Below are positions 9,714-64,000 of a DNA stretch of 64,000 nt, in pieces. The position numbers and the translations under genes were made by a program. Source of the stretch: a virus; the IMG/VR virus record IMGVR_UViG_3300025131_008220, positions 1-64,000 of that record; one strand, written 5' to 3'. Below the pieces are notes generated by a model, which did not search any database, was not told where the DNA came from, and worked only from the letters and a program-made list of their open reading frames with translations. The number at the start of each line of letters is the position of its first letter. Position 1 is the stretch's first letter.

Positions 9714-9728
9714 ATCTATAGTCCACTG

Positions 9729-10529
9729 TTAGGATACCTCTTTCGCGGATTTTTTTTTGGTTTTTCCGATTTTTTCTTGCTCTTGCCAGCTTTCAAAACT
9801 GAATTCATCTGAGCACAGGTGGTCAAACTTAGGGTTTTCTAAAGTTGTCCTCTTATTTATGCACTTGAAAGTTAGGTATGCTTTGAAGTCTTTTTTGTCC
9901 TCATAATATATAGACTTCACTGGTAGTGTGTTAAATTTATTTTCCTTGCAGTAGTTGCGCACTTTTTCTCTTACTAAATAATCAAAAGGCAGGTCGTTGT
10001 CTTCTAGAAAAAAGACCGGTTTAGTAAACTTGAAATCGGGCAGGCATACGGAAAAGGTAGTCGTATTTTTAAACAAGAAAGAGTCATAAAAGGGGATACA
10101 GAGCTGCAAGTCCTTATCGTTCCAAAAGCTGGACACTTTGTTTAAGTCTGTTCTGGGCTGATAGTAAAAGCCATCACAAGCCGCAGCACTGGATATTCTT
10201 ATCAATCTTTTGTATCCTTGAAGATTCCTAGCTAAGACGACATACTTACACTCCTTATCTAAGGATTCCTTTGTTTTGTCTTCGGCATTTTCGCAGATGT
10301 TTAACCTGAGACCAAAGACTAATTTTATGTTGTTCTCTTCGCAGTTTTTAAAAGCTTCTAGAAATCCGTTCATGCTATCTTCGACTAAGAACACGGTCTT
10401 CATTTTATTCCTCTTGGCTATCTCTATAATAGAAGAAGGGTTGTCAGGTTTCTTCTCTTCTTGGTCTTCTAGAGTCAAGATAGACTTACCTATGCTGTAG
10501 TGAGATTTAAATAAAGGAATAGACTTCAT
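9729..10529 (-). CDS. DNA polymerase III alpha PHP-domain protein (split N-terminus)
   Basis: A 266-residue protein equivalent to the PHP domain at the N-terminus of DNA polymerase III alpha: FKSHYSIGKSILT (the metal-site motif, with S where HxH is usual), VFLVEDSMNGFLEAF, KLVFGLRLNI, and VLARNLQGYKRLIRISS...YYQPR. Several metal ligands of an active PHP site look replaced (for example the first HxH is reduced to SH), so it may be structural. It ends with a Lys-rich tail. The polymerase core is two genes downstream. Probably the two proteins assemble into one polymerase. Confidence 0.85.
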   Translation of the reverse strand: MKSIPLFKSHYSIGKSILTLEDQEEKKPDNPSSIIEIAKRNKMKTVFLVEDSMNGFLEAFKNCEENNIKLVFGLRLNICENAEDKTKESLDKECKYVVLARNLQGYKRLIRISSAAACDGFYYQPRTDLNKVSSFWNDKDLQLCIPFYDSFLFKNTTTFSVCLPDFKFTKPVFFLEDNDLPFDYLVREKVRNYCKENKFNTLPVKSIYYEDKKDFKAYLTFKCINKRTTLENPKFDHLCSDEFSFESWQEQEKIGKTKKKSAKEVS

Positions 10530-34194: not shown

Positions 34195-34223
34195 ATTATA
34201 ACAAGAACATGATCAATTGTCAA
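34195..34223 (-). promoter_or_regulatory. Perfect sigma-70 consensus promoter (TTGACA-17-TATAAT)
   Basis: TTGACA (34223-34218), 17-bp spacer, TATAAT (34200-34195), 9 bases before the ATG at 34185. It is the only strong promoter seen upstream of the sugar island and probably drives most of it. Confidence 0.8.
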
Positions 34224-38297: not shown

Positions 38298-38852
38298 TTA
38301 ATGTATTTTTCTTTTTAAAATTTCAGCACCTTTTCTATGCAGGTTTATGGCTGTCTGAGAACTGAAGCCTAAGAGATTTCCTATTTTGGCCCAAGTCATC
38401 TTGCCTCCCGAGAAGTATCTAAGAGAGTAGACTTTTTCAACTCTAGGGTCTTTCATTTTTCCTAGCTCGTTAAATATAAAAGACTTCATCTCTTTATTTG
38501 AGTAAGGATTTCCTTGCTCAGTTATTATGGTGTTCTGCCTGACTTTTTCGCTTAGTCTATTTATTTTAGCGGACTTACTTATTAAATGTAGGCATTTATA
38601 CTTAACATTATTACTAAGCCAAGTACAAAAACTAGATCCTTTTTCTAAATTAAAACTTTTCGCCGACTCGTAAATAATTAAATCCTTATCTAATAGAATA
38701 TCATTAGGGTCGGCCCCAGATTTAGCCATAGACGACGAGTACTTAGAATACATAGACAAAAAGACAGGAGAATACCTAGATATCACCTTAAGTAGAGACA
38801 GGTCACAATCTTTTTCTTGTATCTTCTTTATTTCCAGATAGAAGTTATTCAT
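38298..38852 (-). CDS. Phage sigma factor, sigma-70 family
   Basis: A 184-residue protein. Region 2 is visible in YSPVFLSMYSKYSSSMAKSG, ADPNDILLDKDLIIYESAKSF and GSSFCTWLSNNVKYKCLHLI. Region 4 is RVEKVYSLRYFSGGKMTWAKIGNLLGFSSQTAINLHRKGAEILKR, a helix-turn-helix. It is short, like ECF and phage late-gene sigma factors, and probably redirects host RNA polymerase to late or middle genes. It lies 15 bases after the terminator of a structured RNA, so its level may be set by read-through. Confidence 0.85.
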   Translation of the reverse strand: MNNFYLEIKKIQEKDCDLSLLKVISRYSPVFLSMYSKYSSSMAKSGADPNDILLDKDLIIYESAKSFNLEKGSSFCTWLSNNVKYKCLHLISKSAKINRLSEKVRQNTIITEQGNPYSNKEMKSFIFNELGKMKDPRVEKVYSLRYFSGGKMTWAKIGNLLGFSSQTAINLHRKGAEILKRKIH

Positions 38853-38866
38853 TTTTTTTTAAAATT

Positions 38867-38894
38867 AATAAAAGAGGATTCCGCAAGCGGAATC
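38867..38894 (-). terminator. Rho-independent terminator before sigma factor gene
   Basis: GATTCCG-CTTG-CGGAATC (7-bp stem) followed on the minus strand by CTCTTTTATT. It ends the structured RNA 15 bases upstream of the sigma factor ATG. Confidence 0.75.
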
Positions 38895-39216
38895 GACGTA
38901 GCTTTTTTGCTGAGCACAGTTCACCCAACTTACAAAACACTTAAAACGACTACGAAAGGACGCTTTCGCTTCCACTTTAGTTCTATTCGCAGGGACTTTC
39001 TCCTTTTCGGCCCGCACATACGAGCCTAGCTAATGACTTTCGCAACCTATACCAAGTGTGATTAAAAATGGTAGAACTTTTTTAAATGATCACTTCCCTC
39101 ATACGCCGCCTGCACCCGCTTGTAGCGTACCTTCCAAGGTTCGAGAAGCCCCTTCGGGGTTGTTGGTCTCTCAAGAGTTACCAGACTCGCTTTCGCTTAG
39201 AACCATTCTTCACACT
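38867..39216 (-). ncRNA. Probable structured RNA, about 350 nt, family unknown
   Basis: This gene-free stretch has a perfect promoter at one end (39223-39251) and a terminator at the other. On the minus strand it contains several perfect or near-perfect stems: CCCC-GAA-GGGG (39149-39159), ACCT-TGGA-AGGT, and GGA-AGC-GAAA-GCG-TCC with a GNRA loop. It also has a potential H-type pseudoknot in which GTGAT (39093-39089) pairs with ATCAC (39062-39058) across CTACC (39074-39070), which in turn can pair with GGTATAG (39053-39047). I find no match to RNase P, tmRNA, 6S or group I intron signatures. It could be an independent RNA or a regulatory leader of the sigma factor. Confidence 0.6.
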
Positions 39217-39222
39217 TTCTCT

Positions 39223-39251
39223 ATTATAAATTTTACTTGACTTTCTGTCAA
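39223..39251 (-). promoter_or_regulatory. Perfect sigma-70 consensus promoter, leftward
   Basis: TTGACA (39251-39246), 17-bp spacer, TATAAT (39228-39223). Its -35 lies in the 17-base palindrome CTTGACTTTCTGTCAAG (39236-39252), shared with the rightward promoter. Confidence 0.85.
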
Positions 39252-39265
39252 GTTTTTTTTAAAAT
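39237..39265 (+). promoter_or_regulatory. Sigma-70-type promoter, rightward (TTGACT-17-TAAAAT)
   Basis: TTGACT (39237-39242), 17-bp spacer, TAAAAT (39260-39265). The predicted start falls on the ATG of the dCMP deaminase gene (39272), implying a leaderless mRNA. The -35 boxes of both promoters face each other within one palindrome, so only one polymerase can occupy the site at a time. Confidence 0.7.
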
Positions 39266-39271
39266 TTAAAA

Positions 39272-39724
39272 ATGGACAGACTCAGCTGGGTAGACTATGG
39301 CATAGAACTAGCAAAAACAGCGGCCCTAAGAAGCGAAGACCCATTCATTCAGGTTGGCTGCTGCCTTTTTAGGCCAGATAATAGCATCGCATCTCTAGGC
39401 TACAATGGGGCACCTCCCGGAGTTGACATAGACTGGTCAGATAGAGACGAAAGAAGGAAAAGAGTTATTCATGCTGAAACAAACGCCCTAAAGAATATAA
39501 AACCCCAAGAAGCAGACAGAATGTTTGTAACCTTAATGCCCTGTGGGGACTGCATTAAAAACGTAGCTTCTTATGGAATAAAGCAAATATTTTATATTAA
39601 AACATACGACCTTGATAAAACAGCTATAGACCTAGCATCAGAATTTGGAATAAATTTAACACAACACAATAATGATCTCCGTATATATCAAAAAATTAGA
39701 AGAGTCGGCAGTGACGCCGACTAG
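39272..39724 (+). CDS. dCMP deaminase-family protein
   Basis: A 150-residue zinc deaminase: GCCLFRPDNSIASLGYNGAPPG, HAETNALKN (H67, E69) and PCGDC (C91, C94). It converts dCMP to dUMP, supplying thymidylate synthesis, or acts on a related deoxycytidylate. It is the first gene of the rightward operon and is followed by dUTPase, whose start lies 53 bases inside this gene in another frame. Confidence 0.9.
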   Translation: MDRLSWVDYGIELAKTAALRSEDPFIQVGCCLFRPDNSIASLGYNGAPPGVDIDWSDRDERRKRVIHAETNALKNIKPQEADRMFVTLMPCGDCIKNVASYGIKQIFYIKTYDLDKTAIDLASEFGINLTQHNNDLRIYQKIRRVGSDAD

Positions 39725-48255: not shown

Positions 48256-48309
48256 AAAAGACTTGACAAGTGAATAAGTTTTTGTTAGAATAAGTAAAGC
48301 AAGACGAAT
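48249..48309 (+). repeat. 61-bp promoter module, copy 2 (TTGACA-17-TAGAAT)
   Basis: Near-identical to 35094-35154 on the opposite strand (four mismatches). The -35 is TTGACA at 48263-48268 and the -10 is TAGAAT at 48286-48291. The conserved block continues 18 bases past the -10. It directs transcription rightward into the structured leader and the gene at 48509. Confidence 0.75.
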
Positions 48310-48508
48310 TTCCTCTCTCGACGGAGAGAGGTCGGTGTGACGGAACAATCCCTCCCAAAGGGGTAACGTAGCGACTGCGAGAAGTACAGAGACCAATCGG
48401 TTGAGAAAAATCGCGGGTGAGTCCGAAGTAAGTAGATCTGAAACATTTGTTTTCTGGGTACTGAAAAGGTGCGGGTACACAAATACTCCCGCCACCATTT
48501 ATTTTAAT
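48298..48508 (+). ncRNA. Probable structured leader or small RNA, about 210 nt
   Basis: There is no protein-like frame here. Strong stems are CCTCTCTC-GACG-GAGAGAGG (48311-48330), a CCCTCCC/GGGG hairpin, and GGTGCGGG pairing with CCCGCCACC at 48466-48496. The long gap between promoter and ATG is the exception in a genome where most leaders are under 10 bases, so the RNA is likely functional. It may be a riboswitch-like leader or an independent RNA. The family is not recognised. Confidence 0.5.
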
Positions 48509-48772
48509 ATGGATTATGAAGAGCTGTGCAAAGCATTTAGAGAAGAAGAGAAGATGAAGACAAAACATTTACAAAAGAAGGCCGCGAAGAAAAAGGTCAC
48601 GCGAAAGGTAAAGCATGATAAGATTGTCATGCGGGATCATGTTCGGCGTCAACTGATGAGGGACGTCGAGTATCAAATCAAACACCTTCGGCAAAGAAAC
48701 GCAGCCGATTGCGATGTTGTTGCATTCATCAACAAGAAGTACGCGCAGATACGACAAATAATGTCAGAGTAA
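48509..48772 (+). CDS. Small basic protein with atypical codon use
   Basis: An 87-residue protein, very Lys/Arg-rich at the N-terminus (KTKHLQKKAAKKKVTRKVKH) with a helical C-terminus (RDVEYQIKHLRQRN). Not recognised; nucleic-acid binding is plausible. Arginine is often CGN here, whereas neighbouring genes use mainly AGA, which suggests a different origin. ATG 48509 is chosen; the longer open frame runs through the structured leader. It ends head-to-head with the next gene, and no terminator is visible. Confidence 0.5.
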   Translation: MDYEELCKAFREEEKMKTKHLQKKAAKKKVTRKVKHDKIVMRDHVRRQLMRDVEYQIKHLRQRNAADCDVVAFINKKYAQIRQIMSE

Positions 48773-49132
48773 CTACCACTTACCAATAGGGCAAGACTCC
48801 TCAGCTAAATAAACCTTCAGTGGAACAACACAACCGCACTCAGCGCATCTTTGGTTTTCTTTAATAAACCAAGCGCACCCGTGGCATATAGCGGTCCTTT
48901 TCTCTATTAGGGACATTTCCGCTTTTATCTTCTTTCCGGCCACTAAAGCCTTTGCAGTTTTAGAGAGACTCTTAGCTAAGTTAGCCGCCATCTCCTTCTT
49001 GCTGGGGAGCTTCTTTTTGTCCAGCTTTATAAAATCTTTTTTTAAAGAACCCCTTTTTCTTCCAGAACTATTCGTTTGAGTAGACCCAATTGGTTCGATA
49101 TAAGACCCTCCTGAAAAATTTTTTAAACTCAT
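48773..49132 (-). CDS. Phage zinc-ribbon protein (CxxC...CGC...CPxGKW)
   Basis: A 119-residue protein. The C-terminal third has HGCAWFIKENQRCAECGCVVPLKVYL and CPIGKW, a zinc-ribbon pattern that recurs in phage proteins near structural genes. The first 70 residues are basic and probably flexible. The ATG overlaps the giant gene stop (ATGA). The exact function is unknown. Confidence 0.65.
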   Translation of the reverse strand: MSLKNFSGGSYIEPIGSTQTNSSGRKRGSLKKDFIKLDKKKLPSKKEMAANLAKSLSKTAKALVAGKKIKAEMSLIEKRTAICHGCAWFIKENQRCAECGCVVPLKVYLAEESCPIGKW

Positions 49133-52100
49133 TTTTTTAAATCAAAAACCAGAGGATCGTTGCTAACTTTTAATGTTTTTATTTGTCCCGGGTAGCAGTA
49201 ATGAATACAAGGCCCCATGTATGCCGTCTTTCCGTACCCCTTTATGCCTTTTCTAACGGCATACAGATACTCGTTAGCGCCGTAAACAGCCATAGCCAAG
49301 TCAAACTCAGGCTCAACCTTAAAAGTTCCTTTCGCGGGAACTTGTACAATAGAAGATGACTCCGCATAAGTCTCTTGAGGCCCTATGACATCATCTCCCT
49401 CACTTAAATCAAACAAGTCTTCATAACTATGGGTAACATTGTAGGTGCTTGAAGCTCCACCTTCGCAAAGGCTATGCCTTCCATTTCTTTTATAAACTTC
49501 CCCTATTTTAGTCTCTTCACATGTAGACCTACCCTCTACAAGGGAGCACCTTAGCTTAGATTCCTCTGGTCTATATTTTTCCTTTAAGCCAACAGGCAGA
49601 CTCCTAGTGAAATCTGGAGAAGCAACAACTTCATACTCAGTCCAAACCTTTACTGTTCTTAAAAACGCGGATAAGAAAGGCTTATCTCTGGTCTGACAAC
49701 CAAAAACTATTTGATTGGAGTACCCAGCCCTTATATATTCAGAGCCCCTTATATCAACCAACACGCCACCTTCAACCGGATCAAATTGGGTGCCATCAAC
49801 TGTAGAATTTCCTAAAGAGGAGTCTTTAACAGGAGGGCGTAGAGGCCAAAGCTCGCTGCTTACATCAAATACCTCACTTTTGTAAACAAGCTCTCCCCCG
49901 TAGGCGTAAGCTCTTCTGTTAATTGGGGTAGGCAAAGGGAGACCTTCTGTTTTAATAGGGTGATCGCCATACTCCATGGGAGGATTACAGTAGACACCCA
50001 ATTTCTTAGGTATATTTACATTATTTGGCAATCCAATACTCTTAGGAGTTCTAGGGTCATCCTCATCTTTTTTGAATTTCTTGGCCTCTGGAGTATCTCT
50101 TAACTCTTCGTCTACATCTTCCCATATCGGGCTTCCGAGATCAGCGTCGTAGTCTGTTATATTCTTAAGATCCCCTGAATTACCCCCATCACTTTCGAAC
50201 GCAGAAAAATGAGCCACTTTAACTTCATTGGAGTCGGGATCAAGATAAACTATATAATTTATTCTAGACTTGTTCTCATAAGTTAAATAATCATATTCAT
50301 CATCCCCCATACCCCAGCTGGAATCGGCATCCCCTGCAGAATCGAGATTTGGAAAGGTCAGTCCAGCCATATCTGGATTATTTATATATCTATATTCAAC
50401 CTGACTGAACCTCCTTACCTTTGCATATAAAGGAGCTTCTACTCGTATTTTATGCATAAAGTTAACAGCTCTAGCGTAAGTATTGAAAACCTCTGCAGTA
50501 ATAGCAGCTCCCGGCAATATACCAAAAGACTGAGGCAAGGATGGGTTATCCTCCCTAGAGAAAGAACTTATCCAAGGAGTCGTCTTACTAGCTATTTCGT
50601 TGTTTACGACCCTATACTCTACTATAGATGAGTTATTCGCTAAAGCCCAAGCTTCTCCGGGATCAACGTCCGGATAAACCTCATACTGAATGAACGGCTT
50701 ATCACTTCCGGGCTGATACTTAACCTCTACAGACCTGTTGCTAACAGAAGAAGAGTCCGTCTGGTCCTCCTGAAACAAGCCATCTACATACTCATTCTCT
50801 GTCCCCTTTATTTCCGAAATCTCGTCGGGCATAGATCTTCCATAATTCTGAGAACCCTTTATTTGTTCTATAGAGGAAGTAGCAAAGTTTTTTATTTTTA
50901 TAATCCTGTCGGCCTGAGCCTGTATGTCTCCCCATTCTTTATCATCTTCCGAGGAACCCTTCATAAAATCAACAGAGCCCCTGTTGACACTTTCACTCAA
51001 CTCCTCGTACTCTGTGTAATCAGCTATTTTCTCTGTGTCCTCATAAGTCAACCCGAACTCTTCCTGCTCTTCCTTAGGTAGCGAAGACTCGTTTCCTGTT
51101 ATAGTTGCTTTATACAGCTGCAAACCGGGCACATCGGTAATTGATATCCGGTCAAGACCCCTTTCTTTATTAGGGGAGCCAGCAAGATTAGCTATCTTTA
51201 AGTTATGTATAATGATAGGAGTCACATCAGATCTATACTGCTCTACTTTAACTGTCTTAAGTCCATCAACATCGGCATAGCCAGTACCAGCATTGATTAC
51301 TTCTATAAATTTTAATTTTCCGTTTTCTATTATGGAGCTAGCCTGAGCTTTCCTAAAGTGAGACGGCTTTTTATCTGGTTCTGCTATTGAGATAGTCGGA
51401 GGAGTCCTATAATTATCTCCGGAATCACTTATCATAACCTTAGATATGCCCCCTCGATTAATAGGGTCTTTATAGTTAGCCCTCATATTATGTTCTAAGT
51501 TAAACATATACAGCCTCGAGCAAGGAAGGGTTAAGTCTACGTTCCTATTATGTTTTTTAAAATCAAAGGTTCCGAACTTAACCAAACCACTTTCCGGAAA
51601 AGATACCGACTTCTTGATGTCAGGATTTTCAACCATACTCAAAGAGTGCTGGTATAGATCTATTTCTTCGTTAAGTACACCGTCTCCAGACAAGTCTGAG
51701 TCATATATAATAGACCTCCACTTGAAAGGTAGCCTCATTGGAGATATTTGTTTTTCTTTAGACTGCCATAACTCTTGGCTATCTTTGTCTTTATAGCTTA
51801 TGTCTACGCCAGTTATGACTATCCTATATTTCTTACTGGCGTCTATGCCCTCCCTTTCTATGGAAAATTTGTTCCCTTTATGGCTTAAACCCTCCTCTAC
51901 ACTGCTCCAACTTACCCCATCAGAGCTATTTTCTAAGTCGTAGCGAATGCGAACTGGTTTAGTTCTCTGCTTCTCTTCTAATCCCCCAAAGCCATCTGCA
52001 AAGCCATCCCAAAAATCAGTAATATGAAAATCTAAACTACTGCGCCCCGGAGCGACATTAACATAAGGATATATATATTTACATACCGCAGGCATACCCA

Positions 52101-55100
52101 TATCGAAAAACAAATCTGCAGTAAAATCTTTACTAGAAGATATAGGAGCGACATGTTCATCAAGCCTTGAAAGCCCTGAAGCAGTAAGTTGTTCACCCTT
52201 CTGGGAGTTAGATAGAAGTGAGGCGTGACCTTCTGTGTCGTAAGACTCATAGACTTGTTTAAATTGGTCTCTGAACCCCTTATTTAACATAGGTATTTGA
52301 TAATCAAAGTAAGGGGAGCCAACTAAATCTTCCCCATTGTCCCCATCTGTCTCGGCAGGATAATCAATGATACAATCCGCTTCCTCAACTATACATAGAT
52401 TTTCAAAAACTTTATTTCTCAGAAAGTTTCCGGCTGCCCCCACTGATTTAGATGTTCGGGCCTCTGGCCCAAGCGTTTCTGGTGTATCTTCGGCAACATC
52501 ATAATTTAAAACAACCTTCAGATCCTCATTTGTATTAAAGATCACGCCAGAAGTACTAAGGTTAAGCAGAGGATCATCTTCATTGAATATAACGCTACCA
52601 TTTAAAGTAATAGATTTAATATCACTACTCTTCTTATATATGTATCTGTATCCTTGTTTAGTATTTAACTTTATATTCAATGTTACAGTTTTATCAGAAT
52701 CAGAATTTGTATAGCTAACTCTTTCTATTTGAGTATTAGATCTATATAATAAATTTTTCCAAGAAGAGAATATATTAAAACTTTCACTTGTCCAATGAGA
52801 CGCCGGAATTGCTGTATAATCAGGATCCAACCCTGTTACTGTTCCGTAGCCGAGGCCGCCGTAAGTTTCTCCATGCCAGTGCTTAGCTGCGGTAGAGAGT
52901 TCTAAATTAGCCCTTATCTTATTCCCATCTAAGACATTATTAGTTGCCCAAGAGTCTACCCTCTCGCTGGATATTTCACTAAGCGGTGGCTCTAGATAGA
53001 AAGTCCTAGACCCTATCACAATTGGGGAATTTAATGAGGTTACAGGGCTGTCAGAATCAGGTTGTCCGTAAACGGAGTCATCACCAAGGCAAGATTTTAC
53101 AGATCTATAAGTCCCATCGTCTTCTGTTTCTAGATCAAAATAATTTACCACCTTAAATACTTGACCGGGTAATTCATTATTTGGATCAGCAGATGACACA
53201 GTATCCTCTATATCCGCATCCACCTTATTAAAGGAATCAAGATTTGAGTCTGAGCTAAATATTTTTAATAAAGTTATAGTATTTTTTGTTTCGTTACCGC
53301 TAGTGGCCTGACTAGTAACCCTAGCAAAATAAGGCTTACCGCCAACTATGGAGCCTTTGCTATTTTTAAATACAATTGCGTCTCCATTTGAAATTGCTCC
53401 CCTAATTACAAGCTGGTTACTACTTAAATAGGCGTCGCCTTTATCAGAACTAGTAGCACCTATGGTCCTCCAATTTCTATTTTCACCAGAGAACCTCAAA
53501 ACCCCTCCCGGCCTATATATATCGTGGTAAGATATAGAGCTAACCTCTGTGTCTAAATAATATTTTAACCCAGCAGTCTCGCTCTCATTAGTTAGATACG
53601 AACCTATCTGATAATCTTTCTTTAGATTTTCAAATACAAGCTTCCTCTCCGTAAGCTTTTTAAGCCTAAGCCTGATAGCCTTGTAAGCCTGCTTCCCCTT
53701 GGATGTGTTATAAGAAAGGCCAAGTTGCTCCCTCGTGTCACCACCGTTGATGCCGAAAGGAATAAAAGAATAGCCTTGATGATTTTTTAAACTTTTTCTT
53801 CTGTCTCTTTCTGCTATAGCGAGAGTCTTTGTTATACCTGAGTCATGAGTACCCCCACCTTCTCTCATCGCATATTCCTGACCCTCATTAGTGTTAAAAT
53901 CAAGATTTAAACTGCTTATAGTTCCATCTGCTACAAAAGGCAAAGAGTCTCTGGCTCCTAAAGAGATAGACAACACGACTTTACCTGTATTATTAGTAAA
54001 AGACAGGCTGCTTTTTATTTCGTATTCGTATCCGGGGCTATCTATCTTGTTGTCTTCAAACTTTACCCTAAGCACGTAGTCTTTGTCAGTAGAATTATCT
54101 TTGTTTGTCCACGTGACGTCAGAAAAGCTTTCAGAAAAATCCAAGTCTGGATCTTTTGGTATTTTAAATTCAAAATAATCCTTCTTAAAAGCGCCTTCTA
54201 TATCTTTTAATTTTTTGCCTTGTATTAGTTCATAAGAGGCTCCATTAGCTACTTTGTTACTAATCCTGCCATTTAAGAAATTCTCTTTTTGATAATCTTC
54301 CGACACCTTGGTCCAAGTAGGATCAACGTAATCATCATCTTCAGTCTTGTTAGCTATCTCCTCGTTTAGAGCTTCAGTCTCTTTTTCTACTATATCTTTT
54401 ATAGCCAAATCCGACTCATCAACTCCTTCTGCTTTAAATAAAGAAGCTTTCACTACTGCGAAATAATTATAATGTATTTGATAGTTTTCCTTACCTGCGA
54501 CTCCTATAAATTTTTCTCCGGGCCAGTAGCTTTTGCCATTATACCAAATTACCGGAAAGAATTCCTTAGACACTACATCGGTGTACTTATGTGAGCCGTA
54601 AGCAGTGCCGCCCGGTGCACCCCTTACGGCTGTTGGAGCAAAGTCGTACTTTACAGGAACAGTCTCATCCCCAATCTGATAATATCCATCGAAATCTTCT
54701 AGTATGTAATACTTGCCACTCTCTATACCAGAGACGGTAACTAACCCTGTTCTTTCGTTAAACTCCTTGGAGTAACAGATTCTTTCGTGTCCAGTACTAA
54801 TGGAGTAGCCTATTGTTCTTGCTGGCATATCCCAAGAGATCTTAAGGCCATTTAATATATAATCAGACGAGTCCTTATCGTAGTAAATCTCCTTGCGTTC
54901 GATGCCATAGTCTAATAGACTGGAAGCAGAGTCCTTCTTATCTCCATATAAGACCACGCCAAATTTATAGGGATTGTCGAAATTGCTAATAGACTCGTAG
55001 CCGGAAAGCCCATCACTCTCTATAAACGGCGGGGAAGGCCAGTGAAGATTAGTCCTAAATATGTTGGAAAACTTATATCTAGTCCCAACATAGTTAACAT

Positions 55101-58100
55101 TAAAAGACTCTTTCTTTTTAATAATCCATTCTGCGTTTTGTTCTTCTTCATTAAAATAATTTGGATCTTTTTGTAAATGAGGAATATGAACATCTTTCAA
55201 GCTAATAAACCAATCTCTTCTATTAAACCTTGGACATAGATTATAGTCAAGCTCCTCTGAATTGGTAAACGCAGTTTTTTCTGATGAGTATATTTTATTG
55301 ATTTTTCCGCCAGCTGTAATATTGACGGCTTTACTGGAGGCATTTATTATCTTTAGCCCATCAACAGTTCCCGTATACTCTATGTCTGCTGGCTGAGTTA
55401 TTACGGTTACTTTGTTCTTAGTGCTTATAAAATGTTTTGGCCTAAGCATGTCTATCTGCCGTCCCTCTAGCTCATCTTCAGTTAGATCATCAACCATCAG
55501 AGCTCTCATAGATTTATTAGCAGGCAAAGACCCCACTCCATCGGATTCAAAATCCTCTATTCTTAATTTATTTTCAAATATCCGGCACTGACTATTAGAT
55601 ATGTTACCTATCAGAGTGTTATCTTTTTTAGCCGAGTATATGATATCAAAGGGATCTTTAAATATTACTATTTTGCCGTCATAAAATGGTTTATTTAAAT
55701 AAAAGTTTTTATAAAGAGTCGTCTCTTCAAAGGCTGCATCTCCTCCTTTCGCTACCTCAGTATAGCTTTGTAGTTCTGTTACGGTTGGATCACCTGTTCC
55801 TTCCTGAGCGCACGAGATCATGATCTTGCATTTAGTGGAGCCAGTTAATAGGTCAACTTCGTAATCGTTTTCATCCCCTCCCATGTCTTTGAAATTATTA
55901 TCATTTGAATCTAATTTTCTTAAATTGACAGGGCTCCTGTCTTTATTGTACAGACAAAATTCAGTTCTCTGATCGTGCTTAAAGATATAATCATAATATC
56001 TATTAGATAAAACAACCTTGTCTTTAACAGACTCATCTAATATAAACTCAAACATGTTGCAAACAGGAATCTTTATTTCCATTTTGCTTGATAAAGATGG
56101 ATCAAATTTTACTGGTTTTGAATGAGATATATCTATCCTATCATCATACTTATTATATAGAGCATAATTAGTACTCCATTTTTTGAGCCTAGATAGATCC
56201 GGAGTAAAACCACCTCTTTGAAGCTTTGAGTCAACGCTTGACCAAATGATAAGCGGCACAAAAGTAGTAGTAAAATAAGCATCGTCCGTTACGTTGAATG
56301 CTTTTACGTTTTCAGCGTCAAAAAGAACGACTTTATCCTTGTGAATTGAAGCTGATATCTCCACAGCTCCATCTTTTAAAGTGTGCAGCTTCACGTTTCT
56401 GTTGTCGCTATCTATAATATAATTTTCTGACGAGTCTACTTTAAAATCACAGTAAGCATAAGCAGGTATAGCATAGGTAGATGCCCCTTCTATTGTCTTT
56501 GAGGCATTATAGTTTTTAACATGGAAAGGGGACTTGCTGTTGTTTATTATTTTTATAGAACCAACATCCTTATGTATAGCTAAAGCCCCTGAAACTGAAT
56601 TTTGCTTCGAAGTTATGAAAACCCCAGAGTCAGAGGAGAAAATAGCATTACTTAAAGTAACCACCTCTACACCATCATCGTCACCAGTCACATCACTAAA
56701 GGCACCATCGCTATACTTGATCTTTTTAGCTGCCCCCGCAGCAATAGTAGCATTAGCAAACACAGAGGCCCCCTCAGGACAAGAGAGAACGGATGAATTT
56801 CTAGAAGCATTCACTACCGTAAAATAGATATTATTAAGTTCGAGCATATCCTGCCTAGAAGGTAAAGAGATGTTTTGTTGATCAGCAAAGACATGTTTAA
56901 ACGTTGACCCTTCTGCGACGCCGATATCCAAAGACACAGACTTCTCTTTTAAAAGACGGACATTAGAGCCTATCTTTCCGTTCTCGTCTTTTGTATCATT
57001 TAGCGTTATCTGATACGGGTTATACTCATTAGCTAGCGGCTGCATCTTATTTTCGTCATCAAAGAAAAACCCAAAAGGCCCGGTAAAGCTACCTAATTCG
57101 GAAGTCATAACATCTTGTATGCCAAGACTCAAGACTTTATTTTTATTTAAGTAGTTAGCAGTATCAGTCTGCGATATATATGGCGAGCCAATGCCAAAGT
57201 CGGCATCCCCATCCAAACTTAACAAATAGTAACCCTCTTCCTCCGTCTCCTCAGGAAAGTACGATAAAATTTTAGCAGCTATTGAGTTTTTCTTATCGTC
57301 ACTCAGATTGTTAGAGCCAGCATCTACAGCAACGACAGAAGATATTTTGATGTTTTCATAAACAGTATTTATTATATTTATGTTGCTAACGTTTTCTGCA
57401 CCAAACCCAACAATCTTATAATATTCACTATCAGAAGTCAAATCTATCTCTTCGTTTTTAGATAGCGTATAGGCTTCTTCAACAAGAGACTTTAGGTTTA
57501 TCTCTTCTGCATCTGACGAGGTTATTTTATCATAATAAACATATAAAGATAAAGAGAGCTGCTTTCCGAACACATGATAGTCTATGGAGCTATCTAAAGA
57601 CGTAGAAGAGTGGTTTATGTTAAAGACTGACTGTTCGTCGTCTACAGCAGATATATGCCTAAAGTAATAAGGGTTGTCGTCTGGGTAAACACTAAAGTTA
57701 TCAAGCTCAACAGAATACGCTACCATGGGGTGAAGCTTGCCGTCCCTATAAAGTTCCGACTCTTCGTTAAGGTCACTAACAATTCCCGGATTATATGAAT
57801 TATCGTCTCCTTCCACGGAGATTAACAAAGAAGACGTAGATATATTTGCTATTTGAAAATTAAAATATTCTGAGGCGCTGATTGGCCTAAAGATTTGATT
57901 TTCTCCAGTCCCATTTAAATAATGCCCTGATCCATCCGCCTTATATAAGTAAGGACGCAAGAAATTAGGCTGGCTATCTACAACTATCTTCTTTCCGTTG
58001 TGAGTATCGTAGTCAAGAATTATATCTCCCTCTCGGGATATGCTGTACCTATCTCTCTTACTTTTTGTTTTTTCGTAATTACGATATAACTTTCCGTCGC

Positions 58101-61100
58101 TAACTATAACAGAATCAGAACTTAAATAAAATCTATAGCCAGATACAGAATGGTACAAGCCGTCGTCTTCGTCTTCTTTCAAACTACCGTAAAGGGAGTA
58201 GGCAGTATTAGTCGTTGATAAGTCAGCATTAGATATAACTAACATAGCGTTAGCGTTAACCACCACAGAAGCCGTTCTAGAGAAGTTCCTTGCCGTTATA
58301 GGCATGTTGGTCATGTTAACAACAGCAACCTGCTTTAAATTAGTATAAGCGTCAGGCAATATTATTTCTCTATCTTCATTATATTCTTCGTCTTCGTTTG
58401 GAGTATAAAATACAAAGTTTAACGCTTGCTTAGTTCCCCCTGCAGGGGTATACGTGAATTGACTTTGAGCGTTATCTATTCCTAGATTTGCTCTATCTGG
58501 AATATGTATTTCGTTTTTAGGGTAGTATATAACATCTCTATTTGCTACGCTTTGGTCTTGCAAAGTGAAAGCGCCATTACCGTCATGTTTGTAGGCTCTA
58601 TTTTTAAGTAAAGTATCAGTGCTGCTATCTTGTGTGTTTTTAATGGTAACTGAATCTAAACCGCCATTAATAAAATAATCATTATCAAAGTCATTGTCTG
58701 TTAAAGCAGCTTGAGCAGTAAACACTCCACTTGTTATAATTTGATTTTTACTAGCTGCCGCAGCTGTTGCTTTATTTATATCCAAACTATCAACTGAGCC
58801 ATCTAAACCAATCAAAGTATGGACCCCAGAGAAAGCTAGACCTCCTTGAGTATAAGAGCCGTCAGAGGCACTGAATAGCTCCACAGACTCTTTGTTGCCT
58901 AAAGAGCTGACAATAGTAGAGTCGTCAGAGTAAGCTTTTATATTTTGAGAACCGCCTAAGTTTATTATTGAAACCTTACCATAGTCTAAGGCATCTGTAT
59001 AAAAGGTCTCTGAGAAGAATGTATAGTCAGAAACACTGGCATAAGTAACTGGGACAGATAGAGCCTTATCTGAGTATAAAAGGAACTCGTTTTCATTTAC
59101 TACTTTGACAAACAAAGTTTGAGTCATTAAGTCTGCTTCGTCTACGTCTGCATCCAGAGCCGAGCCAGCAGCAAAAGTAAAAGGTATAGAATTTGATGTA
59201 GTCTTTGCAGTAGCGGCGCTGAGACCATTAGAGTATAAGTCGTATATATTTCCAGCCCCTACAGGAGTTCCCCCCGACTCCTTGTTAGAACCCACTCCAA
59301 TCCTTATAAACATTTTCCCAGCTTCTAATGGCCCATTCGTATCCCACTGAAAAGTGTAATAATACTCATTAAAAGTACCAATTAAAGGCTCCGGTATAGT
59401 AAAATAGTCCTCGACCAAGTACCTATAGCTTCCATCGGTCCCATTGTCTACATATCGAAAATATGTATCTGATTGAGTGTCATAAACCAATAAAGTATCC
59501 CCTTCTGCTATGCTGTGAGAGCCTATAGTTCCATTAAAAGTATCCTTCGCTGAGTCCCAATCAGAAGTTTCAAAATAATAATCAACCAAAGTCAACCTAT
59601 CGCACGGGAAGACCATTTTATGATTTGTAACAAGACCATGATTACTTAAATTAAACTTATTGCTCCCAGTAAGAGAAACCTTAGAGAGCTGGAATGCCTC
59701 ACCTTCTGATGCTGGCGCATATTTATTAACCTTACCCTCGGAAAAGAAAGATCGCAAGGCCACGTTACTTAAAGAGCCGTCAAGAACAAGAAAGTCCTCA
59801 TCACTCAAAGCAGGGGAAGAGAAGCTTTCAATAGGGGTGGTTCGAAAGTTATCGTAGTTAGTAGCAATCTCTACGTCTTCGTCTTCAAAATAATCATAAG
59901 TTGACGCGCTAAAACCCTCCAAGGAGTCCATGGTAACGCTAGTTATATCACTGTTATCACTTATAGCCGCAGCTGGGTACAATACGTTCGACAGGCTTTC
60001 GGCCGCGTTTACAAACGTTAAAGCAAAGCCCCTGTTGTAGTCAAAATCAGTTAGGTTTGTCTTCAAAGTAGGTAGCTCGACAGCAAATTCTTCATTTCTA
60101 CTTATCAAAACTCTTTCTTTTGCATCACTTGGTTGATTAAACTTATATTTATTAGAATTTTTATTCTGTGGGTCGGCCCCAATAAACTCTACATAGAACT
60201 TGTTTTCTCCCCCTGATCCTTGCCCTATGATATGCGAGCTTTTACCAACCCTCACCAAGTCTTTATTAGATAAATTATCTACTACATACCTATGGAAACC
60301 CGAGTCCTCTTGGTCATTAAATTTATATACATTGTCTTCTGACTCTAGGTCATACGCCAAGGTAGTGCTAGGATGAGCAGAGATAAAGAAAAACTCAAAG
60401 TTAGTTGGGTAAGTGTCTTTTTTAAATTTAAGTTGTATTTTTTCTGAAGAGCCAGAGTAGGAAAAGATTTTTCCGTGTGACCGAGAGTCTATTATAATCT
60501 GAGAACCAGTTATAGCACTTATGTTAGTAAAGGACCACCCATAGGATTTCTTTTCCACCCTTACTCCAATAACACCCGGGGGAGCGCTATACTCTAGATG
60601 GCCGTCAATAAAAATTCTCATTGTAGGGGTCCTTTCGTCCCTTAGAAAATCAAAGCTTATATCGTTAACCTGAGATCTTACGACGCTGAAATTAAAACCC
60701 TCGGTAGTGCTATCAGAATTTACTCTAACATCCACATCCTCATTATGAATAAATACCTCTTTATTGTCTGATGACTTTACATTTAATTGATTATATCTGA
60801 TCACCTCTATGTTGCTAGTTGACCAGTTTCGTATAGTTTTTCCCCCGGACTCAGACTTAGAACAAGTAAATTTTCTAGTAGTTTGCCTAGGTATATAGTC
60901 AACTGATTTTGAATCTATTTTATAGCCCGACTCAGATACAACCTTTATCTCGTCATCTGTAGCGTTTAAAAACGATACATGCTCGCCTCCTGCAAAGCCG
61001 CTAGGCAATACAAGAGTGGAGTTAGTATCTATAACGCCTGTTATGTCGACATCGTTTTCGGTTAATACTATCTTGTCATGATCAATAACTATAACACCAG

Positions 61101-64000
61101 AATCAATATGATTGAGCCTCTGGGCAGACGCATTGTAAGACACTCCAGACAAAGACCCTAGGCCATCACGGCCAGCTATACCATCAACCAATGAGCAATC
61201 CCCAGTAGAAATATTTACCAAAGTGCACGCGCTATCTATATTTGAGTTTGATACAGAAACCTTGCTTACGTCCTCCACTAAGACCAGACTTTCATCAATG
61301 TCTTGTCCTACTTTGGCATCTGGCAGAACTGTAATAACGCCAGAGACTTCGTCCCCAGATGAATCAAAAGAGCCATCAGAATCAACTCTAATGGTTCTTG
61401 CTTTTTCTGTACTAGAAGTAAGAGCCGGTGAAGAGTAAGCCGCGTCTGGGCTATCAAACAACTTAACAGTTGAGGAACCAATATTTACAATATCAAAATG
61501 ATAATTGTTCCCAATAAATATGCCGCTAGCATTTGTACCAGAAACTAAAAAGGTCTTACCTATATCATCAGCAGTAACAGTAAATTCGCCAGTCATCACA
61601 GGGGAATTTAAGAAGTCGTAAGCTGGCTTATAGGAAACACCACTGACCCCTGTCTCAATAGACGAGTCTGATAGGCCCGTAGTAAAGGACGAGCAAGTAA
61701 AATTGATAAGAGACTCGCTAGGAGCAGTATCGTTCGCTGTATATATATCAAAATTTTCTAGCTCGTCTAAATGGCTACCTGTTATAGAAGGGTCATAGAG
61801 GACCTTCGTCTGCCTCGCATCTAAGATTACATTTTCTCCAGTCTTAATTGAACCATGAGATTTCTCGACTCTATTTATTGAAAGACCACTAGGCTTAGGC
61901 CCTATAACACTTTTTACAGTCTCTAAAGAACTAACGCTGCCTCCGTATACCCTCAGGCCGGTCATACCCGCAACCTCATACGGTTTTCTATCTTCTATGT
62001 CAGTATAAGTAACCGTAGAAGTTTTGTCTAGAGCCATAGTTACATTCTCTACTTTAAGCGTGTCACTAACATCGCTGCTAAATAATATACTCTCGTTAGG
62101 GTCTTTATATACTACATATGTGGTATCAGAGTCTAAATGAACAGCTACTTGGTTAGCTTGGTCATAAACAGAGTAGTGTTGAGAATCTAAAGGCGAATCA
62201 ATAGCGCCCTCCATCTGCCCTTTGTCGCCAGCGGCTTTCTGCGTTAAGTCTAGAAGGGTACCAGAAGTAGGTATAGTCACCTCCATGGGCAATAAATTAA
62301 CCTTTTTTAGCACCTGTGTATTAAGAGAGCCATCGGAGATAGATATATTCTGCTTTTTCTTTATTCTAATCTCTATATCCTCAGGCTTATACTTATCCGT
62401 TATGTCGGTTTTTATTATTAAAGTCGGCAGCAGCGTAACATTATCTATGTTGTCGAAAGAGTTTGGTCTTAACCCTTCTAAATCATTATAAAACATTGGA
62501 TAGCCTACATGGCTTTCTGTAGAATCTACATCTGTCCAATTAGAACCTTCATCAATTGAATATTGGAGTTGATAGTCCCAACCAGATTGAGATCCCCTTG
62601 ATTCTTTATGCCCAACATCGCCGACAACAACAGCGTGTTTTGTATAAAGCCTATAAACATATCTAGTTATCCTGAGCCTAGAGGCGCTAGAGTAGGACGC
62701 GCTGTCACTAGATACAAGCGGAATTGTAGACGTATCTTCTCCGCCCTTTTTAGCGAAGCGCATAGACCTCATACTTTTACCTCTATCTAGGAACTCATAC
62801 AGATAAGGAGCCCTTCCTTTATTAAAGTTATCTGTACTACGAGCCTCATCCCTAACGTTGAAAAAATAATTATCCAATACGATTCCGTCAAAAGCTGAGA
62901 TGTTACCGCTAGAGTCTCTGAATATAGGCCTACCTTCATAGTTTTTATTTATATGGGGGTTATTAGGCGCTCTATAGGCGTAGCCCTGCAGATAATTAAC
63001 TAAAGCCCTCGTCCTTGAATCTGTCTCAAGTTTTCCATATTCGTTGGTGCCCTCAGCCAGAGCATCTTGCAGCCATTCATATGCATGAAAAGTGGTCTCA
63101 TCAGACATATCAGCTATATGATCCAGATAGTTGTCAGGAGGACCAACGTTATCAAACTGATTCCTGTTAATGATCCAGTCATTTTTAGCAGACTTTGCTC
63201 TATTGTATTTTAATTTTAAAACTCTGTACCTTATCTTTCCGCTATCTACTTTAAAGTCAGTCTTAGAGTCGTCTGTTGTCTTCCCCTTATGCAAAGATTT
63301 TCCAACATAGAACCTTACTTGATAAAGCTCAGCATTCAGCCCTTTTCCTATTGTTAAGGCCTTAGTAGAATCAAAAGAGTAGTCGTCGTAACCGCATTCT
63401 ATATATTTGAATTTCTCATTAGTTTTAGCATCTGTTTTTAAAACTTGAGCTTCTCCATCTACATATAAACACAATCTATATTCATCCTTACCGGACTTAA
63501 CTTTAGCTAACGCTATATGCTTCCAGCTAGATGTAGCTCCAATATCATGATCCCCTATGACAACTCCAAACGAGTCCCCCTTAAGCCTGACTGTCAACTT
63601 AGCAGAGCTGGGAGTTGAGGCGTCTATGGATAATTTTATTCCATTTTCTCTCTCAAATATAGTCCCAGTCTCAGATGCCGCCTTTATCCAAAACTCTAAA
63701 GAAAACTCTCCGTTCTGTATATTAAAAGATCTATGAGAAGGGATAGATAAGTACTGATCATCTTCACCGGGAAAACTAAAAGCTTTTATATCATCATCAC
63801 CATCCCCATCCCAATCTTCATCTATTAAAGCAATGGCTCCTGCTGATTCCGGATTCTTATTTATGGAGTGCTCTGTTTTTGATGCATCATAAATTCTGTC
63901 TGTAGTAGTGTTATCTATGCCACCTGTGCTTTTAAGTACTAAGCTGTCTGGAGATTCATTAGACAATCCTATTCCTTCGTAGTCGTCTACTATAGCTCCC
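49129..64000 (-). CDS. Giant virion-type protein, at least 4,957 residues, partial
   Basis: The frame is open from the right window edge to 49129. The first in-window start-like codon is only a TTG (63966), so the true N-terminus is outside. A LamG/concanavalin-like domain (FSLEFWIKAAS...SSWKHIALAKV...YVDGEA, about 63450-63800) is near the visible N-terminus. Much of the rest consists of degenerate beta repeats that begin with a hydrophobic strand and N-x-S/T (for example VVNASRNSS, IINNSKSP, IINASSK, VVNMTNMP). The C-terminal region is acidic and Cys-containing (GRSTCEETKIG; GPCIHYCYPG). It is most likely a tail fibre, baseplate or surface fibril protein. Confidence 0.75.
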   Translation of the reverse strand, partial: GAIVDDYEGIGLSNESPDSLVLKSTGGIDNTTTDRIYDASKTEHSINKNPESAGAIALIDEDWDGDGDDDIKAFSFPGEDDQYLSIPSHRSFNIQNGEFSLEFWIKAASETGTIFERENGIKLSIDASTPSSAKLTVRLKGDSFGVVIGDHDIGATSSWKHIALAKVKSGKDEYRLCLYVDGEAQVLKTDAKTNEKFKYIECGYDDYSFDSTKALTIGKGLNAELYQVRFYVGKSLHKGKTTDDSKTDFKVDSGKIRYRVLKLKYNRAKSAKNDWIINRNQFDNVGPPDNYLDHIADMSDETTFHAYEWLQDALAEGTNEYGKLETDSRTRALVNYLQGYAYRAPNNPHINKNYEGRPIFRDSSGNISAFDGIVLDNYFFNVRDEARSTDNFNKGRAPYLYEFLDRGKSMRSMRFAKKGGEDTSTIPLVSSDSASYSSASRLRITRYVYRLYTKHAVVVGDVGHKESRGSQSGWDYQLQYSIDEGSNWTDVDSTESHVGYPMFYNDLEGLRPNSFDNIDNVTLLPTLIIKTDITDKYKPEDIEIRIKKKQNISISDGSLNTQVLKKVNLLPMEVTIPTSGTLLDLTQKAAGDKGQMEGAIDSPLDSQHYSVYDQANQVAVHLDSDTTYVVYKDPNESILFSSDVSDTLKVENVTMALDKTSTVTYTDIEDRKPYEVAGMTGLRVYGGSVSSLETVKSVIGPKPSGLSINRVEKSHGSIKTGENVILDARQTKVLYDPSITGSHLDELENFDIYTANDTAPSESLINFTCSSFTTGLSDSSIETGVSGVSYKPAYDFLNSPVMTGEFTVTADDIGKTFLVSGTNASGIFIGNNYHFDIVNIGSSTVKLFDSPDAAYSSPALTSSTEKARTIRVDSDGSFDSSGDEVSGVITVLPDAKVGQDIDESLVLVEDVSKVSVSNSNIDSACTLVNISTGDCSLVDGIAGRDGLGSLSGVSYNASAQRLNHIDSGVIVIDHDKIVLTENDVDITGVIDTNSTLVLPSGFAGGEHVSFLNATDDEIKVVSESGYKIDSKSVDYIPRQTTRKFTCSKSESGGKTIRNWSTSNIEVIRYNQLNVKSSDNKEVFIHNEDVDVRVNSDSTTEGFNFSVVRSQVNDISFDFLRDERTPTMRIFIDGHLEYSAPPGVIGVRVEKKSYGWSFTNISAITGSQIIIDSRSHGKIFSYSGSSEKIQLKFKKDTYPTNFEFFFISAHPSTTLAYDLESEDNVYKFNDQEDSGFHRYVVDNLSNKDLVRVGKSSHIIGQGSGGENKFYVEFIGADPQNKNSNKYKFNQPSDAKERVLISRNEEFAVELPTLKTNLTDFDYNRGFALTFVNAAESLSNVLYPAAAISDNSDITSVTMDSLEGFSASTYDYFEDEDVEIATNYDNFRTTPIESFSSPALSDEDFLVLDGSLSNVALRSFFSEGKVNKYAPASEGEAFQLSKVSLTGSNKFNLSNHGLVTNHKMVFPCDRLTLVDYYFETSDWDSAKDTFNGTIGSHSIAEGDTLLVYDTQSDTYFRYVDNGTDGSYRYLVEDYFTIPEPLIGTFNEYYYTFQWDTNGPLEAGKMFIRIGVGSNKESGGTPVGAGNIYDLYSNGLSAATAKTTSNSIPFTFAAGSALDADVDEADLMTQTLFVKVVNENEFLLYSDKALSVPVTYASVSDYTFFSETFYTDALDYGKVSIINLGGSQNIKAYSDDSTIVSSLGNKESVELFSASDGSYTQGGLAFSGVHTLIGLDGSVDSLDINKATAAAASKNQIITSGVFTAQAALTDNDFDNDYFINGGLDSVTIKNTQDSSTDTLLKNRAYKHDGNGAFTLQDQSVANRDVIYYPKNEIHIPDRANLGIDNAQSQFTYTPAGGTKQALNFVFYTPNEDEEYNEDREIILPDAYTNLKQVAVVNMTNMPITARNFSRTASVVVNANAMLVISNADLSTTNTAYSLYGSLKEDEDDGLYHSVSGYRFYLSSDSVIVSDGKLYRNYEKTKSKRDRYSISREGDIILDYDTHNGKKIVVDSQPNFLRPYLYKADGSGHYLNGTGENQIFRPISASEYFNFQIANISTSSLLISVEGDDNSYNPGIVSDLNEESELYRDGKLHPMVAYSVELDNFSVYPDDNPYYFRHISAVDDEQSVFNINHSSTSLDSSIDYHVFGKQLSLSLYVYYDKITSSDAEEINLKSLVEEAYTLSKNEEIDLTSDSEYYKIVGFGAENVSNINIINTVYENIKISSVVAVDAGSNNLSDDKKNSIAAKILSYFPEETEEEGYYLLSLDGDADFGIGSPYISQTDTANYLNKNKVLSLGIQDVMTSELGSFTGPFGFFFDDENKMQPLANEYNPYQITLNDTKDENGKIGSNVRLLKEKSVSLDIGVAEGSTFKHVFADQQNISLPSRQDMLELNNIYFTVVNASRNSSVLSCPEGASVFANATIAAGAAKKIKYSDGAFSDVTGDDDGVEVVTLSNAIFSSDSGVFITSKQNSVSGALAIHKDVGSIKIINNSKSPFHVKNYNASKTIEGASTYAIPAYAYCDFKVDSSENYIIDSDNRNVKLHTLKDGAVEISASIHKDKVVLFDAENVKAFNVTDDAYFTTTFVPLIIWSSVDSKLQRGGFTPDLSRLKKWSTNYALYNKYDDRIDISHSKPVKFDPSLSSKMEIKIPVCNMFEFILDESVKDKVVLSNRYYDYIFKHDQRTEFCLYNKDRSPVNLRKLDSNDNNFKDMGGDENDYEVDLLTGSTKCKIMISCAQEGTGDPTVTELQSYTEVAKGGDAAFEETTLYKNFYLNKPFYDGKIVIFKDPFDIIYSAKKDNTLIGNISNSQCRIFENKLRIEDFESDGVGSLPANKSMRALMVDDLTEDELEGRQIDMLRPKHFISTKNKVTVITQPADIEYTGTVDGLKIINASSKAVNITAGGKINKIYSSEKTAFTNSEELDYNLCPRFNRRDWFISLKDVHIPHLQKDPNYFNEEEQNAEWIIKKKESFNVNYVGTRYKFSNIFRTNLHWPSPPFIESDGLSGYESISNFDNPYKFGVVLYGDKKDSASSLLDYGIERKEIYYDKDSSDYILNGLKISWDMPARTIGYSISTGHERICYSKEFNERTGLVTVSGIESGKYYILEDFDGYYQIGDETVPVKYDFAPTAVRGAPGGTAYGSHKYTDVVSKEFFPVIWYNGKSYWPGEKFIGVAGKENYQIHYNYFAVVKASLFKAEGVDESDLAIKDIVEKETEALNEEIANKTEDDDYVDPTWTKVSEDYQKENFLNGRISNKVANGASYELIQGKKLKDIEGAFKKDYFEFKIPKDPDLDFSESFSDVTWTNKDNSTDKDYVLRVKFEDNKIDSPGYEYEIKSSLSFTNNTGKVVLSISLGARDSLPFVADGTISSLNLDFNTNEGQEYAMREGGGTHDSGITKTLAIAERDRRKSLKNHQGYSFIPFGINGGDTREQLGLSYNTSKGKQAYKAIRLRLKKLTERKLVFENLKKDYQIGSYLTNESETAGLKYYLDTEVSSISYHDIYRPGGVLRFSGENRNWRTIGATSSDKGDAYLSSNQLVIRGAISNGDAIVFKNSKGSIVGGKPYFARVTSQATSGNETKNTITLLKIFSSDSNLDSFNKVDADIEDTVSSADPNNELPGQVFKVVNYFDLETEDDGTYRSVKSCLGDDSVYGQPDSDSPVTSLNSPIVIGSRTFYLEPPLSEISSERVDSWATNNVLDGNKIRANLELSTAAKHWHGETYGGLGYGTVTGLDPDYTAIPASHWTSESFNIFSSWKNLLYRSNTQIERVSYTNSDSDKTVTLNIKLNTKQGYRYIYKKSSDIKSITLNGSVIFNEDDPLLNLSTSGVIFNTNEDLKVVLNYDVAEDTPETLGPEARTSKSVGAAGNFLRNKVFENLCIVEEADCIIDYPAETDGDNGEDLVGSPYFDYQIPMLNKGFRDQFKQVYESYDTEGHASLLSNSQKGEQLTASGLSRLDEHVAPISSSKDFTADLFFDMGMPAVCKYIYPYVNVAPGRSSLDFHITDFWDGFADGFGGLEEKQRTKPVRIRYDLENSSDGVSWSSVEEGLSHKGNKFSIEREGIDASKKYRIVITGVDISYKDKDSQELWQSKEKQISPMRLPFKWRSIIYDSDLSGDGVLNEEIDLYQHSLSMVENPDIKKSVSFPESGLVKFGTFDFKKHNRNVDLTLPCSRLYMFNLEHNMRANYKDPINRGGISKVMISDSGDNYRTPPTISIAEPDKKPSHFRKAQASSIIENGKLKFIEVINAGTGYADVDGLKTVKVEQYRSDVTPIIIHNLKIANLAGSPNKERGLDRISITDVPGLQLYKATITGNESSLPKEEQEEFGLTYEDTEKIADYTEYEELSESVNRGSVDFMKGSSEDDKEWGDIQAQADRIIKIKNFATSSIEQIKGSQNYGRSMPDEISEIKGTENEYVDGLFQEDQTDSSSVSNRSVEVKYQPGSDKPFIQYEVYPDVDPGEAWALANNSSIVEYRVVNNEIASKTTPWISSFSREDNPSLPQSFGILPGAAITAEVFNTYARAVNFMHKIRVEAPLYAKVRRFSQVEYRYINNPDMAGLTFPNLDSAGDADSSWGMGDDEYDYLTYENKSRINYIVYLDPDSNEVKVAHFSAFESDGGNSGDLKNITDYDADLGSPIWEDVDEELRDTPEAKKFKKDEDDPRTPKSIGLPNNVNIPKKLGVYCNPPMEYGDHPIKTEGLPLPTPINRRAYAYGGELVYKSEVFDVSSELWPLRPPVKDSSLGNSTVDGTQFDPVEGGVLVDIRGSEYIRAGYSNQIVFGCQTRDKPFLSAFLRTVKVWTEYEVVASPDFTRSLPVGLKEKYRPEESKLRCSLVEGRSTCEETKIGEVYKRNGRHSLCEGGASSTYNVTHSYEDLFDLSEGDDVIGPQETYAESSSIVQVPAKGTFKVEPEFDLAMAVYGANEYLYAVRKGIKGYGKTAYMGPCIHYCYPGQIKTLKVSNDPLVFDLKK

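Follow-up and report, generated by a model that had tools for sequence, protein, structure and literature searches.

The 64,000-nt stretch of viral DNA analyzed here (the window) comes from an IMG/VR virus record of 83,919 bases and carries, on its minus strand, a ~340-nt non-coding region (39216-38877) that follows a promoter and ends in a terminator. We analyzed the corresponding RNA as a 348-nt unit (38869..39216, minus strand), which has homologues with conserved synteny and covariance model (CM) homology. Its sigma-70 promoter, TTGACA-17-TATAAT (39223..39251, minus strand), had been called perfect in the original prediction and does score 12/12, with 11-12/12 in three close relatives. Overlapping the -35 box is an inverted repeat, ACTTGAC-TTTCT-GTCAAGT (39235..39253, strand given as (.)), which is conserved in four close members and also scored as a terminator-like match on the plus strand. 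This repeat could possibly be an operator or a terminator for the other strand. At the far end lies an intrinsic terminator, GATTCCGC-TTGC-GGAATC (38877..38894, minus strand), whose hairpin is followed by a T-rich tail and shows two compensatory changes in the close relative G006.

Downstream of the terminator is a gene for a sigma-70-like factor of 184 aa (38298..38852, minus strand; phrog_36, E = 1.4e-6). Its Sigma70_r2 match is sub-threshold in the window protein (E = 0.008) and reaches 9e-8 in orthologues. A terminator had been predicted 15 bases before the sigma ATG; the terminator is there, but the distance holds only from the T-rich tail, as the ATG at 38852 lies 24 nt past the stem. 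On the other side, a dCMP/cytidine deaminase gene (39272..39724, plus strand; Pfam PF00383, E = 9e-17) is a conserved synteny neighbor, and both it and the dUTPase gene run divergently from the ncRNA on the plus strand. These signals strongly suggest that the RNA is transcribed from its own promoter, with early or middle expression because that promoter is of the host sigma-70 type, and that transcription in the window's clade terminates ahead of the sigma gene. We considered and rejected a leaderless mini-ORF at the start of the RNA, which opens with GTG and has 11 codons in the window, since neither its length nor its sequence is conserved, and comparison across members showed no conserved coding capacity in the ncRNA region.

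Beyond the sigma gene, a DUF736-like gene has its own near-perfect promoter (TTGACA-17-TATACT, 38288-38260, minus strand), so that in the window sigma is apparently the sole gene between two promoters. Elsewhere in the window, strong sigma-70 promoters at 34223 (minus), 43174 (plus), and 19687 (minus) are followed by an ATG about 8-11 nt past the -10 box, which suggests that they drive leaderless or near-leaderless mRNAs. An uninterrupted reading frame of 4945 codons occupies 49129-63966 (minus strand), and L009 has additional large frames beyond it; no PHROG match was obtained for any of the eight frames tested, so that the structural genes are very divergent. DNA polymerase homology is split at 6481-10529 (minus strand), where two frames, 6481-9078 and 9729-10529, each have a match to phrog_405 and an exonuclease-like gene (9075-9713) sits between them.

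Family members and their fold

With the window's DNA polymerase as the query, we collected 80 related contigs, three of which (G004, G006, and G007; 75-80% identity) carry the RNA with the same neighbors on both sides. These close relatives keep the promoter (11-12/12), the RNA, and the terminator at the same locus. Among 11 more distant sigma orthologues, only G011 has a long non-coding region upstream of sigma; the remaining ten have a kinase-like frame that extends up to the sigma gene. The G011 RNA had only motifs in common with the others (AAAGUYCUACC and AGCUAGGC). Neither a CM nor profile alignment by itself gave significant homology for it, and a loose descriptor matched 69 of 4000 shuffles, so we did not claim homology until bridging members and the model R2 (below) were in hand. 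A scan for dCMP-deaminase relatives yielded two long intergenic regions with the same motifs (L193 and L195), and the pattern GCCCGTNAAAAGRCNCYAATC, common to these two and G011, added L266 (= L269), L267, L270, and L271.

A CM built from the close relatives only (R1) missed the distant members. For R2, we used only seven distant members (G011, L193, L195, L266, L267, L270, and L271), and of these the 5' domain. Constructed without the window clade, it nevertheless recovered it, with E-values that are rough: 3.6e-7 for G007, 9e-6 for G004, 6.8e-5 for G006, and 5.9e-4 for the window. On the full 83.9-kb record, the window RNA was its only match (E = 5.0e-4), and it found one extra member, G085 (E = 6.8e-18). 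The search covered 89 virus records, some picked because they already matched, and gave 12 distinct members, all from uncultivated phages (IMG/VR metagenomic contigs): the window and 11 others, of which three are close and eight distant and mostly longer (380-440 nt). By R2, most of the DNA-polymerase relatives tested lack the RNA, which is therefore dispensable or replaceable.

Outside these records, blast searches of INPHARED with the window RNA and with two homologues yielded nothing beyond chance or promoter-sequence matches, and the exact pattern identified no family member in bacterial genomes, where two hits (L290 and L291) were chance matches with the remainder of the domain absent. 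A gapped-pattern match in L171 was likewise due to chance and lies in a coding region. The gaps upstream of sigma in two more distant phages (L166:2187-2458 and L169:2172-2461) hold an unrelated repeated sequence of the CGTANCCTNAC type; the gene across this repeat region from sigma resembles a ribonucleotide reductase small subunit.

The stable stems of the original prediction were not supported by folding energy: the minimum free energy of the window RNA was -97.3 kcal/mol, compared to -98.0 +/- 5.4 kcal/mol for dinucleotide shuffles (z = 0.13), and none of the z-values obtained (0.13, -0.56, and 0.69) offered energy-based support. Since folding energy was no better than in shuffles, we turned to the homologues to test the structure. 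This comparison, which the original prediction had proposed as a check, did find conserved structure in the homologous intergenic regions, with covariation across the 12 members far above shuffled and slid controls.

The 5' domain (39093..39163, minus strand; the best R2 match in the window) is a three-way junction of helices P2, P3, and P4. P2 pairs CUUCUC (39148-39143) with GGGAAG (39100-39095) and covaries, reading CCAAUC/GAUUGG, CUAAUC/GAUUAG, or ACAAAC/GUUUGU elsewhere in the family. In the P3 hairpin, ACC-UUGGAA-GGU (39129..39140, minus strand), 4/4 model pairs change on both sides, to CUACU/AGUAG in G007 and to AAGG/CCUU, UAGC/GCUA, UGAC/GUCA, or AGGUC/GACCU in others. P4, ACGC (39128-39125) with GCGU (39106-39103), encloses a conserved CGGG. 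When the domain was aligned with MAFFT, unfitted to any structure, 95.9% of cells paired and 27 were double changes, compared to 10 in shuffles (0/500), while two of five measures were not distinguishable from shuffles. In the CM-fitted alignment of all 12, which leans towards the structure, 99.4% of cells paired, 11 of 14 pairs changed on both sides, and 41 double-change cells stood against 12.3 in shuffles; sliding the partner abolished the signal.

Outside this domain, three long-range helices, whose arms we extracted by hand, make up a crossed core. P1 joins the 5' end (AAUGGU, 39202..39207) to the sequence directly after the pseudoknot arm (ACCAUU, 39072-39067), with 6/6 pairs in all 12 members and many double changes. 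In the permutation test, its arms formed 60/60 pairs, a value reached by none of 20000 arm permutations, and they matched in 12/12 cases within their own genome vs 22/118 across genomes. The helix H11, AGUUCUA (39072..39078) with UAGAACU (38985-38979), crosses both P1 and H8 and bears out the possible pseudoknot noted earlier. Its arms, AGUCC/GGACU or AACCC/GGGUU in distant members, are complementary in 12/12 sequences with one mismatch, in L195 (67/68 pairs). However, arms swapped between genomes still pair at 85%; they are nearly conserved between genomes, and the covariation of H11 is therefore modest. H8 pairs GGUUGCGAAAG (39037..39047) with CUUUCGUAGUC (38948..38958); all four close members form the full 11 pairs, and the changes among them preserve pairing. 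For the topologically equivalent helix of the distant clade, a fixed-register test gave 55/64 pairs (4/20000 permutations); the support comes from this test, a broad-window test being only mildly favorable.

Smaller elements complete the RNA. The GNRA-type loops had been rightly recognized, an example being the hairpin GC-GAAA-GC (GCGAAAGC, 39196-39189), whose tetraloop is GNAA in the close clade. The conserved core motif AGCUAGGC (39024..39031) continues into helix H9, GGCUC (39026-39022) with GGGCC (39013-39009), and a hairpin near the 3' end, UGGGUG-AACUG-UGCUCA (38911..38927), shows consistent one-sided changes; all of these long-range and smaller elements are on the minus strand. Together, the comparisons showed homology of the 12 members, a conserved locus, and compensatory base changes. 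By covariation, a knotted fold is conserved while the sequence and the neighboring gene change.

Neighboring genes and possible regulation in cis

The locus is constant across the family, adjoining the dCMP deaminase gene and/or a small conserved gene, and members have in common a downstream cluster that contains genes for dNMP kinase, sigma, a DUF736-like protein, and a glycosyltransferase. What comes directly after the RNA varies. It is sigma in six of the 12 (the window, G004, G006, G007, G011, and L267), glycosyltransferase-like in four (L193, L195, L266, and L270), dNMP kinase in L271, and tRNA-Gly in G085. By reading, without statistics, we identified a separate promoter-like sequence for the next protein gene in four members (G011, L266, L270, and G085). 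L267 resembles the window clade in having a terminator just before sigma; between terminator and ATG, no sigma promoter was found in the window and its three close relatives, nor any other in L267. The RNA's own promoter scores 11-12/12 in the window clade, 11 in L267, and 10 in G085. In several distant members, it scores 8-9/12, which is chance level for this hexamer score, and TTGAC is mostly kept. In two RNA-carrying phages, tmRNA genes are present (L293:1396-1812, plus strand; L296:16002-16402, minus strand), with tRNA genes nearby.

This arrangement bears on the earlier suggestions that sigma is made by read-through only and that the RNA may be an attenuator. Read-through is plausible in the window, its three relatives, and L267. 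An attenuator specific to sigma is unlikely: it would require one and the same gene downstream in every member, transcribed together with the RNA, which does not hold across the family. A broader version would make the RNA a cis-acting leader, an attenuator of riboswitch-like or protein-responsive type that governs read-through to the downstream gene cluster. Like attenuator and riboswitch leaders, the RNA is structured, and in the window clade and L267 an intrinsic terminator separates it from the gene that follows, with no other promoter for sigma seen in these five members. Its pseudoknotted structure is aptamer-like, and it always heads the same general set of genes (kinase, sigma, DUF736-like, and glycosyltransferase), for which it may have a cis role. 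Unlike such leaders, however, its downstream gene is not conserved and is in several members apparently separately promoted, and in G085 a tRNA gene intervenes. Nor did we find a convincing or conserved antiterminator; the one complement to the terminator arm that the search returned is weak, lies in invariant sequence, and is hence uninformative. In G006, both terminator arms change in compensation. We find the attenuator unsupported as a general account and regard the broader leader as a minority possibility, at about one chance in five.

Instead, the RNA probably has a function as an RNA itself, beyond any switching of the adjoining sigma gene. The reading that we favor, and consider reasonably likely on the comparative evidence, is an independently transcribed, pseudoknotted phage ncRNA family whose members act in trans by virtue of their three-dimensional fold. 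Against this reading stand the unexceptional folding energy, the weak promoters of several distant members, the constant position ahead of one general gene cluster, and the absence of the RNA from most DNA-polymerase relatives tested.

Relation to known RNAs and proposed function

The original prediction had matched the RNA to no signature of a known class, and comparison with Rfam 15 upheld this: no family matched the window RNA or seven other members at the gathering score or at cmscan E <= 5-10. No match was found to the Rfam covariance models of GOLLD, ROOL, OLE, group I/II introns, RNase P, 6S RNA, or SRP RNA; the only GOLLD line was partial (10.4 bits, E = 2.3) and ran from 38895 to 38800, over the terminator and the start of the sigma gene. 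Neither ARAGORN nor Rfam found a tmRNA at this locus, with respect to a tRNA-like domain or a tag reading frame; G079 and G085 do carry tmRNA genes, distinct from this RNA. On these comparisons, this is a previously undescribed family of phage ncRNA.

The manA RNA motif (RF01745) is a structured RNA from marine metagenomes and T4-like cyanophages (PMC2864571), and it differs from the new RNA in kind and locus. The ncRNA does not match RF01745, and the sole match in the record lies at 48314-48502. There, the window carries a second promoted ncRNA (48263-48512, plus strand), a divergent manA at 42.1 bits (gathering score 55.2; E = 1.6e-9). A manA-like RNA is found elsewhere in six of the 12 phages, above the cut-off in two.

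The long hairpin of 6S RNA, with its bubble resembling an open promoter, acts on RNA polymerase. For the new RNA, only the company of the sigma gene prompts this idea; unlike 6S, it has a crossed-helix core, and it has no Rfam match.

The nearest kind of RNA is GOLLD and ROOL, large phage RNAs of unknown function, to neither of which the new RNA belongs. GOLLD (RF02032) is large, intricate, encoded by phages and prophages, often near tRNA genes, and in many cases >800 nt, with its function unknown (PMC12286853). The new RNA is likewise a large, intricate, phage-encoded RNA, and some members lie near tRNA genes, but at 350-440 nt it differs in size, in sequence, in the lack of a CM match, and in its locus beside dCMP deaminase and the sigma/kinase cluster. 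ROOL is a phage and prophage RNA with multiple pseudoknots whose function is not known (PMC12286853); the new RNA shares pseudoknots with it, yet is smaller, has other conserved motifs, and gives no Rfam match. By analogy, the new RNA could be an ornate self-assembling RNA that forms a homo-oligomer or a cage, a reading that is compatible with action in trans and more specific than it. Proximity to tRNA or tmRNA genes in some members, as in GOLLD and ROOL (PMC12286853), points this way, as does a segment of the window-clade RNAs, CUCUUAAGAG, that is nearly palindromic and could dimerize. Given the shorter RNA and the missing Rfam matches, we think self-assembly somewhat less probable than a cis-acting leader.

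A double-pseudoknot core with highly conserved unpaired nucleotides would also suit a ribozyme or self-processing RNA, with AGCUAGGC, UGCG, and CGGG as the putative active site amid the crossed helices, but it matches no ribozyme family, gives no sign of cleavage products, and resembles cores found in non-catalytic RNAs, making catalysis improbable.

The distant members have an additional feature, a direct repeat in two copies, which is present in 8/8 of them (L132, L193, L195, L266, L267, L270, L271, and L292) and absent from the window clade. The copies are exact over 12-17 nt in seven members, with one mismatch in L193, compared to an average of about 8 nt in shuffles; within a genome the two are (near-)identical, and their sequence varies from one genome to the next. 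They occupy equivalent positions, each with a hairpin-like segment before it. A consistent intramolecular partner was sought and not found with confidence. The largest excess of own- over cross-genome complementarity, which is weak and the best of seven regions, lies just 5' of the second copy (mean -12.0 own vs -9.7 kcal/mol cross; cross sd 2.7). Such genome-specific repeats could be seeds for one partner of an RNA sponge or antisense RNA; however, across the eight records the only further copy or complement with <=2 mismatches was one 2-mismatch match in G011, and the window clade has no repeats, so we give a sponge as little credence as a ribozyme. A more ambitious possibility, speculative and to our minds doubtful, is a new phage RNA machine, a double-pseudoknot RNA in whose long form the two repeats evolve in concert and would both have to recognize one co-evolving partner; it may be a conformational switch, with a single internal segment pairing now with one copy, now with the other.

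Under the favored trans-acting reading, the phage-made RNA would fold into its crossed-helix core and, as the phage takes over the cell, bind a complex of host or phage origin. Our leading guesses for that complex are RNA polymerase and the ribosome, solely on the grounds that the RNA accompanies sigma and, in some members, tRNA or tmRNA genes. In the window's clade, read-through past the terminator would yield a smaller amount of sigma factor, and may thereby set the ratio of RNA to sigma.

Large new classes of structured RNA are rare, and the best-known phage examples, GOLLD and ROOL, are without known function. The family described here is smaller, has a clear crossed-helix core, and occurs naturally in a compact form (the window RNA) as well as a longer one that carries twin repeats. 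Situated by phage sigma and nucleotide-metabolism genes, it offers a tractable system for the function of big phage RNAs, and its conserved motifs and 12-member set can be used to find the RNA in transcriptomes and cultured phages.
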